NCBI RefSeq assembly: GCF_030020805.1
Contig: NZ_CP125098.1
Coordinates: 2,398,001 to 2,462,000 of the forward strand
Direction: 5' to 3'
Origin: Paenibacillus sp. RC67
GTDB lineage: Bacteria > Bacillota > Bacilli > Paenibacillales > NBRC-103111
Length of the DNA stretch: 64,000 nucleotides
The number at the start of each line of letters is the position of its first letter. The stretch's first letter is position 1. A model generated the notes under the pieces. The model saw only the letters and a program-made list of their open reading frames with translations. It ran no database searches and was not told the origin of the DNA. Shown one piece after another: positions 9,299 through 11,618 of this stretch. The translations under genes and the position numbers were made by a program.

Positions 9299-9880
9299 AT
9301 GTCTAAATCCATATTACTTTTATTGACCGGTGATATCAGGTCCATTGACCCGATGCTGCAGGAACAAGTATATAAAGAATTTTACCGGCTCATTTACCCG
9401 TTAATCATATATATTGTCAAGGATCATCCGACTACGGAAGATATTATTCACGAAACATTTCTACTCATTATTCGGAAAAGCCCTCATGATATCGAGGAAG
9501 TCCGGTTAAATGCCTGGATTCGTGCGGTAGCCCGAAACGCAACTATAAGTTATTTAAGAAAAAATAAAAAAAGGCGTGACGAACTTCTTTCTGATGACGT
9601 CTATATAGAACATGCTGCTTCTTTTCTGCATGAACCTGTATGTTCTACGGAATCCGAGGTAGAGGCCAAGCTTCTGGAAGAAGCTATTATCCACTATATT
9701 CATGAGTTGAAGCCGATTTATCGTCAGGTCATTCAAATGCGTTGGACCGAATGTTTATCCTACAAGGAAATGGCGGATCGGTTAGGCGTCACGGAGGAAA
9801 AGATCCGTCAAACGCTGCACCGCTCCAGAGAAGCTATCAAGAAAAAACTGCAGCGTGATTGGAAGGTGAACGAGCCTTGA
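9299..9880 (+). CDS. ECF-type RNA polymerase sigma factor
   Basis: The 193-residue protein shows sigma-70 region 2 (residues about 20-90, including TTEDIIHETFLLII and LNAWIRAVARNATISYLR) and region 4 (about 135-185, LKPIYRQVIQMRWTECLSYKEMADRLGV and a basic recognition helix). The two-domain layout and size are those of extracytoplasmic-function sigma factors. Its stop overlaps the TTG start of the next gene (TTGA), so translation is coupled to a membrane anti-sigma-like protein. The start has GGAGG eight bases upstream. The inducing signal is unknown; the membrane partners suggest envelope stress. Confidence 0.9.
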   Translation: MSKSILLLLTGDIRSIDPMLQEQVYKEFYRLIYPLIIYIVKDHPTTEDIIHETFLLIIRKSPHDIEEVRLNAWIRAVARNATISYLRKNKKRRDELLSDDVYIEHAASFLHEPVCSTESEVEAKLLEEAIIHYIHELKPIYRQVIQMRWTECLSYKEMADRLGVTEEKIRQTLHRSREAIKKKLQRDWKVNEP

Positions 9881-10661
9881 ACAGTTCTGAATTTGAGGAT
9901 GAATTTGATCGCTTGTTTGAAGAAGCAGTCTCCAAAAGCGAGAAGAATGTTCCCGCACCCGACGCCGATCCTTCTTGGCAGCGTATGCTGTCTAAACTCC
10001 GCAGGGAGCGACTTAGAGCGAAATGGCTGCGTGCGGCCAAGTGGTCTGGGATTGCTGCGGCTTCATTAATACTGGGCACCTTTCTGTTTCAATCTTTACA
10101 GCCTACAGAAGCGTTTCGTCCGATGTTTGAGATGGTGTACAAGGTAAAGGGTGGATCGGTAAGTATGAACGTGGGGAGTACGGACAGAGGCTCCACGGAA
10201 GGAGCTAAGACGGCACCGCCCCCGCCGGATGACGAGCTTGCGCCTCAACCGTTGAAGGATAATCGGGACTTGCCAGAGGAGAACGCTTTTAGACGGGAAA
10301 AAGTTACGATGGACGAGGCTGTGGTAAAAACGCAGTTTGTGCTGCCGGTACCGGGCTATATTCCAGAAGGATATATTTTACAAGAAGTCACGATCCATTA
10401 CTCGATAGGGGAATCGAAAGCGAGTGCCGCTAAGCTAACGTATTCTCACGAGGAGGATTCCGGACAGCTTTCTATATTGGTTCGAAAACGTTCGTTCAGC
10501 GAAAAAGCAGATCAGCCAGACGGTAAAAGAGAATTGACAGCGTCTCCATCTGGTATAAAAGAGCTTGAGGTGAATGTCGGGGACATAAACCTCATTGTGA
10601 AGGAGCACTGGAGGAAGGTGTGCTGAACCGAGTTACAGATAGCATGCTCACAAGCAAATAA
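9877..10661 (+). pseudogene. Anti-sigma-like membrane protein with DUF4367-type domain, apparent 3' frameshift
   Basis: The TTG start overlaps the sigma-factor stop and has AAGGTGA upstream. A cytoplasmic head (residues 1-52, including DPSWQRMLSKLRRERLR) is followed by one membrane helix (about 55-75) and an external domain with the PGYIPEGYIL pattern seen in DUF4367-like anti-sigma proteins. The uninterrupted frame ends at 10626 in HWRKVC. The next frame from 10602 reads GALEEGVLNRVTDSM and stops at 10659-10661, just before the next gene's binding site, and looks like the normal end of such a domain. One G seems to be missing near 10602. The truncated 249-residue form keeps the sigma-binding head and helix, so it might still work. 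Confidence 0.65.
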
Positions 10662-10676
10662 GCCTTAGGAGGTTTT

Positions 10677-11618
10677 ATGAATACAGGGTGGCTACTGTTA
10701 TTTAAAGAAGATATCGTTGCCCTCGGGGCTTCCATACAATATGCATTGTTCGAGGAGTATGTCAAAATCGTCTTCGAACAGGGGCTGCTGCTAAGACTGG
10801 ACGGAACTAGCGCTCGGCATGTCGTAAAGAGTGTCTTTCTTCAGGCATCCTCCAGACGATTTACAGAAAGGAACGAAGAGCAAATAGCGGAACGGTTAAT
10901 AGAAATGACAGAAGGACTAGCGGCACGACAGCCATTTCGAGCGGCTCACATCGTTGGAGAGAACGCGATACTACCTTCACAGCTATTGGAAGCGTGGAGC
11001 GATGTTACTTCGGTTCTCCAAAGAAAACGGAGACGACGAAGTCGCGCTCGTCTGATGATTTCCGTTAGCTCATTGGCTATCATGCTGCTTGTCGGAGGAA
11101 TTGCCTTCAGTACAGAAGCTCCTGCACAAAAGGCGGGTAAAGAGGTCGCAGCTTCAAGCGGCGAAGATTCCGACGAGACAGATGAATCGGCAACGGATGT
11201 CCGTGTTCACGAAGTCAAGGATTTGAAGGTGACGGCTGATCAAGCAAAAAGCTATGCGAATTTTAAGATGGGGCTTCCGCTGTTTTTGCCGGACGGATAT
11301 CATTTTGAAGAAGCTAGAGTTTTTTTGGATGAACGGAAAACCAAATCTAACAATATCATTTTGGTATATACCAACGAGAAGGAGCACCTGCTTAGAGTCT
11401 CTTATTTTAAGTTAGCTCCCCGGAGCGTGTTGTCTACCGGCGTGAATATGCCGGAAAGCACGGAGGAAGTTTTTTTACGAGGCAGCAAAGGGCTTCTTAC
11501 CAAAACGAAAAGCAATTTCGTCCAATTGGATTGGCTGGAAAGCGATACCTTTATCAGTATCAATGGCAGAGAGATTGACGGCAAGCAGTTGATAAGAATG
11601 GCGGAAAGCCTTAAGTAA
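10677..11618 (+). CDS. Anti-sigma-like membrane protein with an N-terminal sigma-region-2-like domain and DUF4367-type C-terminus
   Basis: The third gene of the sigma operon has TTAGGAGG upstream. Residues 1-120 do not look like a usual anti-sigma head. They line up without gaps with the first ~80 residues of the adjacent sigma factor: shared LLL at 6-8, DI at 12-13, Gln21, Glu27, Asp42, FL at 54-55, Glu67, and similar hydrophobic spacing. A basic stretch (QRKRRRRSRAR) and one membrane helix (about 125-145) follow, then an acidic linker and an external domain with LPLFLPDGYHFEEA and a C-terminal INGREIDGKQLIRMAESL. The protein may compete with or hold sigma partners at the membrane; this role is inference. 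Strong terminator downstream. Confidence 0.65.
   Translation: MNTGWLLLFKEDIVALGASIQYALFEEYVKIVFEQGLLLRLDGTSARHVVKSVFLQASSRRFTERNEEQIAERLIEMTEGLAARQPFRAAHIVGENAILPSQLLEAWSDVTSVLQRKRRRRSRARLMISVSSLAIMLLVGGIAFSTEAPAQKAGKEVAASSGEDSDETDESATDVRVHEVKDLKVTADQAKSYANFKMGLPLFLPDGYHFEEARVFLDERKTKSNNIILVYTNEKEHLLRVSYFKLAPRSVLSTGVNMPESTEEVFLRGSKGLLTKTKSNFVQLDWLESDTFISINGREIDGKQLIRMAESLK

Follow-up and report, generated by a model that had tools for sequence, protein, structure and literature searches.

Sigma-like domains are already known within bacterial regulators, including PhyR and RsoA. In Alphaproteobacteria, PhyR is an established sigma mimic (PMC8103513, PMC8999054). PhyR, the anti-anti-sigma factor of the EcfG/NepR system, is a soluble protein that combines sigma2- and sigma4-like parts with a receiver domain and is switched by phosphorylation. 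In the SigO-RsoA system of B. subtilis, a free-standing region-2-like protein (RsoA) is encoded beside its partner gene and works in transcription as sigma2. ECF48, ECF52, ECF53 and IutY unite sigma with membrane or anti-sigma parts in one polypeptide, and each keeps a complete working sigma factor. The class II anti-sigma factor CnrY uses its first helix to bind sigma4 and its last to bind sigma2 (PMC7406223). Finally, sigma-M of B. subtilis is encoded in a three-gene operon together with a membrane anti-sigma made up of two proteins, the anti-sigma factor YhdL and a second membrane protein, YhdK (PMC6827917).

We examined a three-gene operon of like layout in a 64,000-nucleotide stretch of the genome of Paenibacillus sp. 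RC67 (the window), in which the third gene joins a sigma region 2-like head to an anti-sigma-type body. A first-pass annotation of the window had singled out the interval 10677–11036, corresponding to the first 120 residues of that gene. The features of the locus are as follows.

9299–9880, plus strand: gene 1, ECF sigma factor of 193 aa, with region 2 at residues 1–98
9877–10626, plus strand: gene 2, membrane anti-sigma factor, whose TTG start overlaps the stop codon of gene 1
10668–10673, plus strand: ribosome-binding site of gene 3, AGGAGG (read from the sequence; conserved in orthologs)
10677–11618, plus strand: gene 3 (313 aa)
10677–10931, plus strand: gene 3 head (residues 1 to about 85), a degenerate domain of the sigma region 2 type
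10992–11054, plus strand: gene 3 basic juxtamembrane helix, AW-x2-phi-x3-L (residues 106–126; homologous to the SW helix of gene 2)
11055–11120, plus strand: gene 3 predicted transmembrane helix (residues 127–148; hydropathy and an invariant GG motif in alignment A1)
11283–11618 including the stop, plus strand: gene 3 DUF4367 domain, predicted to be extracytoplasmic (residues 203–313; PF14285, E 1.3e-7)

Gene 1 is matched by both Pfam sigma domains (Sigma70_r2, 1.8e-8; Sigma70_r4_2, 1.4e-11) and by NCBIfam TIGR02937 (3.5e-24). Gene 2 comprises a short two-helix cytoplasmic domain resembling that of class II anti-sigma factors (an acidic helix 1 and a basic SW helix), a transmembrane helix and a DUF4367-type body, the last recognized by a weak Pfam DUF4367 match and from ortholog alignment A3. 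At its end (window 10595–10626) it is one G short of its orthologs (AAGG-AGCACTG, versus AAGGGCGCGCTC in L004). Because of this missing base its last ∼20 residues lie in another frame and it terminates early at EHWRKVC, which reflects either a real mutation or a sequencing error. Alignment of the regions upstream of the sigma genes revealed no shared promoter beyond the ribosome-binding site.

The first-pass annotation had aligned the head of gene 3 without gaps to region 2 of the sigma factor encoded two genes upstream, and every match that it cited is present in a Met-to-Met register (LLL at 6–8, DI at 12–13, Q21, E27, D42, FL at 54–55 and E67). In this ungapped register the head and the sigma factor (9299–9880) share 12 identities over 90 positions, with a register score greater than that of every one of 20,000 shuffles; the best local score for the pair covers residues 1–55 (p about 5e-4). 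LLL, D/N12, I/V13, Q21 and F54 are kept across ten orthologs, and E27, D42 and E67 vary. BLASTP of the pair gave no match, and no sigma match for the head was obtained in single-sequence searches of Pfam, NCBIfam or PDB sequences. The best PDB-sequence match, to FliS (E 0.41 over the C-terminal half), was judged to be due to chance. Since single-sequence tools show nothing and the identity of the pair is low, we gathered gene 3 orthologs for the construction of profiles.

With these profiles, hhalign aligned the cytoplasmic part of gene 3 to region 2 of the cognate sigma factor from Met to Met, free of gaps, over 80 columns (E 4.6e-7); full-length gene 3 aligned to the sigma profiles, also gap-free, over 80–81 columns (E 1.8e-5). 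The observed score was 42.2, against 23.5 for the best decoy among 1200 column-permuted alignments. Most of the signal lies in residues 1–55; residues 31–90 alone give a weak match, on the same diagonal. A general ECF sigma2 profile, built from the other sigma factors of the same genome with the cognate group left out, matched residues 22–87 of the head in the correct register (E 0.0014) and scored above all 500 decoys. A head HMM was run over 395 genomes of the order, with the best candidates (at most ten) scored per genome, and among the candidates so scored it matched the ten orthologs and only two further proteins. Both of the latter are complete ECF sigma factors beside DUF4367-like anti-sigma genes (E 1.3e-4 and 2.7e-4). 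At a fixed database size, an HMM of the same kind reached E 4e-6 on members of this sigma family, which is widespread in Paenibacillaceae, compared with E 0.37 for the best of 1240 shuffled decoys. The sigma-70 similarity on which the annotation had staked its claim is thus found by hhalign, by HMMER and in the decoy-calibrated scores, and family profiles make secure the assignment, at the level of sequence, of the head as a diverged homolog of sigma region 2.

Structure prediction was consistent with this assignment. An AF2 model of the head based on a shallow alignment of two gene 3 rows only (pLDDT 51.7) placed helices at residues 4–15, 18–34, 43–57 and 67–84, a pattern that fits sigma2 within a low-confidence model, and Foldseek returned no meaningful match for it. 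When two sigma rows were added, one of five models reached a pLDDT of 81.6 and a pTM of 0.77. Foldseek found nothing significant with this second model either; in a structural comparison over model residues 1–93, its top six matches were all ECF sigma2 domains (Z 4.8–6.5; SigC, SigE, sigma-E, SigL and SigR are those named), and only unrelated helical proteins appeared below them, at lower Z. The predicted fold is therefore not unlike region 2, albeit for a model that includes sigma rows and is to that extent circular, and we count it as consistency rather than proof. We consider it highly improbable that the sigma resemblance reflects chance or convergence between small helical domains: the absence of a single-sequence Pfam match, the confinement of most of the signal to residues 1–55 and the low confidence of AF2 when sigma rows are withheld would all fit such an origin, but it is opposed by the decoy-calibrated profile scores and by the genome-scale HMM search, in which the sole non-orthologous matches listed are sigma factors.

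The remainder of gene 3 resembles the adjoining anti-sigma gene. Residues 105–313 align with gene 2 (hhalign probability 99.1, E 7.7e-19) across the tryptophan-led juxtamembrane helix, the membrane helix and DUF4367. This alignment begins at the SW helix, and the N-terminus of gene 2 does not match the gene 3 head. Gene 3 lacks the first, acidic helix of gene 2, the sigma2-like head standing in that place, and with it the two-helix anti-sigma domain whose first helix binds sigma4. Pfam and NCBIfam searches found DUF4367 as the sole domain (the PF14285 match spans residues 203–312) and no receiver domain. Judged by these alignments, the body of gene 3 belongs with the DUF4367 anti-sigma factors, minus their complete two-helix domain. 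The membrane anti-sigma-type body described in the first-pass annotation is borne out by the DUF4367 match; its membrane helix, placed there after ∼80 residues, lies later, at ∼127–148, so that the predicted topology leaves ∼126 cytoplasmic residues ahead of it.

Because the head is a sigma2 homolog and residues 105–313 are a paralog of gene 2, we regard gene 3 as a sigma2/anti-sigma chimera. In a phylogenetic tree the gene 3 heads group together (support 1.0); their long branch lies inside the sigma family and adjoins, with weak support (0.68), the L072 and L073 sigma factors. Since the heads form a single clade, the fusion of head and body probably happened only once, with the head probably derived, as far as the tree indicates, from this ECF sigma family. 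Among 18 heads tested from 30 sampled loci, only those of gene 3 orthologs matched, and no sigma-like head was found on the other DUF4367 proteins so sampled in the bacterial family.

This architecture differs from each of the systems described above. PhyR resembles gene 3 in being an ECF-system regulator with a degenerate ECF-like domain from which the core and promoter contacts have gone; unlike PhyR, the gene 3 product is, by prediction, anchored in the membrane, has sigma2 only and has an anti-sigma-type body. The locus shares with SigO-RsoA a region-2-like protein beside a partner gene, but the gene 3 head has lost its contacts with core and DNA and is attached to the membrane. In CnrY-type class II anti-sigma factors and in gene 2, as in gene 3, the last cytoplasmic helix before the membrane is basic and of the sigma2-binding type; in gene 3, however, a sigma2-like domain replaces the first, sigma4-binding helix. 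Whereas the single-polypeptide ECF48, ECF52, ECF53 and IutY proteins retain a working sigma factor, gene 3 does not. The likeness to YhdK lies in operon layout and proposed function, no sigma-like head being reported for YhdK in the accessible portion of that source. The literature that we searched, with incomplete coverage, yielded neither a description of a sigma-like domain joined to a membrane anti-sigma body nor a mention of DUF4367. The remark in the first-pass annotation that such a design is not established for ECF systems was too strong, sigma mimicry being known from PhyR; for the chimera itself we found no described counterpart in the literature searched.

The fused region 2/membrane anti-sigma protein recurs in ten genomes of two genera, and in all ten it directly follows the sigma and anti-sigma genes; it was seen only where those two genes adjoin. 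A protein search found it in 10 of 104 genomes of the bacterial family, and the matches listed for 395 genomes of the order contained the same ten orthologs; among 399 genomes drawn from the class, none was found besides the window's own. The cognate sigma family is present in 81 of 103 genomes of the bacterial family.

Comparison of the orthologs showed that gene 3 is under purifying selection, as judged from coding sequences. The head has a dN/dS of 0.17–0.23 in the closest two pairs whose dS is finite (the other pairs being saturated), similar to that of the DUF4367 part and below the linker values. Identity to the window protein is 33–72% for head residues 1–60 and 10–41% for the linker, and DUF4367 is the best conserved part. 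The ten heads can be aligned with each other without difficulty: W5, L7, F9, Q21, L24, F25, L41, F54, L74 and W107 of the cytoplasmic part are invariant across the ten orthologs, and the set W5, K10, Q21 and E26 is nearly so. One ortholog (L010, 714–1226, minus strand, 171 aa) keeps the head, the W-helix and the membrane helix and is without DUF4367, and the cytoplasmic module therefore seems to matter on its own. A convergent gene lies directly after this shortened gene 3.

Other loci with this sigma family are arranged differently. In L084 (genome G008) a frameshift after residue ∼32 divides the sigma gene, which is followed out of frame by a recognizable gene 2 start, and no gene 3 was found; this operon, in a genome of smaller size, seems to be in decay. 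In many relatives (L088–L093 and L097–L102, mostly genus g21) the sigma gene is closely followed by a DEAD-box helicase gene, and a DUF4367 anti-sigma gene is absent from the stretch listed after it. In L094 the gene after the sigma gene (2030–2455) encodes a 141-aa membrane protein whose cytoplasmic domain is short, possibly a minimal anti-sigma factor of another type.

For inspection of the functional surfaces of the head we used the numbering of the window's sigma factor (P0001), which by register is shared with E. coli RpoE around region 2.2. In published complexes, helix 4 of the anti-sigma factor touches sigma2 at positions 22, 23, 26, 27, 31, 35, 47, 51, 54 and 58 (PMC7406223, Table 2), and this contact surface is the one that binds the beta-prime clamp helices (PMC7406223). 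E22, Q23, L31, E47, D48, F54 and I58 are invariant in the sigma factors. In the gene 3 orthologs, position 22 is Y/F/R/K, 23 is A/S/T, 47 is R/Q, 48 is H/Y/L/Q/N/R (never acidic) and 58 is mostly A; with position 31 also changed, F54 is the only sigma-invariant anti-sigma contact kept throughout. The region 2.2 contacts (E47, D48, Q/H51, E52 and I58 in sigma) are changed, often to basic residues, the region 2.3/2.4 residues W73, N80, Y85 and R87 are lost, and Pfam found no region 4. What the head retains are buried-looking hydrophobic residues together with D/N12 and Q21. The interface positions sum to a net charge of −3 to −4 for the sigma factors and of −1 to +3 for gene 3, as read from residue identity at positions defined for class I complexes. 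The head is, on this residue-level evidence, a sigma2 homolog that is not a functional sigma factor.

These losses bear on the proposal, made in the first-pass annotation, that the head might capture core polymerase. Such a decoy would bind the beta-prime clamp helices and hold RNA polymerase at the membrane or compete with sigma factors; sigma factors bind core chiefly through region 2, the fold of which is kept in the model that includes sigma rows. The proposal nevertheless finds no support at the residues concerned, since the beta-prime contacts of region 2.2 are gone in every ortholog, and with the acidic face now neutral or basic we consider core capture very improbable.

Mimicry of sigma towards the anti-sigma factor is possible, if on balance doubtful. 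The membrane-tethered head would, on a signal from DUF4367, capture the gene 2 anti-sigma factor and free the sigma factor, as a one-component analogue of PhyR. The head comes from the same sigma2 family as the partner sigma factor and is encoded in the same operon, and the restriction of gene 3 to genomes with adjoining sigma and anti-sigma genes also fits. Mimicry is not weakened by the missing core and promoter residues, because the sigma-like domain of PhyR is reported to have lost these contacts too (PMC8103513). The replacement of sigma-invariant E22, Q23, L31, E47 and I58 does weigh against it, as does the loss of acidic charge from a head that would face the strongly basic helix of gene 2, although contacts could have been remade; a sigma4-like part is also absent from gene 3. 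The fuller form of this scheme, a Firmicutes one-component membrane sigma mimic in which the DUF4367 signal leads the head to capture the gene 2 product or to gate its sigma-binding helix, so that sigma is freed without phosphorylation or proteolysis, strikes us as rather unlikely.

The reading that we prefer, at somewhat less than an even chance, is that gene 3 acts as an accessory membrane regulator (a co-anti-sigma factor or modulator) of the same sigma/anti-sigma pair. The operon order of sigma, anti-sigma and gene 3 in all ten genomes agrees with this, and gene 3 keeps a sigma2-binding type of helix (W, a hydrophobic residue at about +3 and L/I at +7). The W-helix carries a net charge of +7 to +10 in the gene 2 proteins and of +4 to +8 in those of gene 3; given these and the interface charges, the gene 3 helix would suit a genuine, acidic sigma2, and its own head would be unsuited to a basic helix. 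An anti-sigma system of two membrane proteins has a precedent in YhdL/YhdK (PMC6827917). The charge argument uses class I contact positions, however, and the positive-inside rule may account for part of the basic character of the juxtamembrane helix. Moreover, a simple co-anti-sigma factor would have no need of a strongly conserved sigma2-like head, the retention of which hints at a more specific role.

We infer the membrane topology, binding partners and sign of regulation of such an accessory regulator as follows. The DUF4367 domain would sense outside the cell, the basic, W-led helix next to the membrane would contact the genuine sigma2 on its acidic face, and the dead sigma2-like head would serve as a repurposed protein–protein module in place of the first helix of gene 2. 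Alone, gene 3 would be a weak anti-sigma factor because it has no counterpart of the helix with which gene 2 would bind sigma4; together with gene 2 it would hold or tune the same sigma factor at the membrane, as YhdK does with YhdL.

The head may instead be a structural cap or dimerization module left from the fusion, with the transmembrane/DUF4367 sensor acting on gene 2 through the membrane. The loss of all functional sigma surfaces with retention of the core hydrophobics, and the conservation of DUF4367 above all other parts, speak for this reading; we nonetheless think it quite unlikely, since L010 lost DUF4367 yet kept the head, and W5, K10, Q21 and E26 hardly vary.

Whether it is an accessory regulator or a mimic, the parts of gene 3 and its partners are small (about 85 aa for the head and about 25 aa for each anti-sigma helix), and binding tests and genetics should consequently be straightforward. 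The locus offers a compact natural case in which to ask whether sigma mimicry occurs beyond PhyR and whether a membrane-bound pseudo-sigma2 is able to function. It shows how a regulator can be built inside an operon, with its head from a sigma gene and its body from the anti-sigma gene, apparently once, and then kept under selection.
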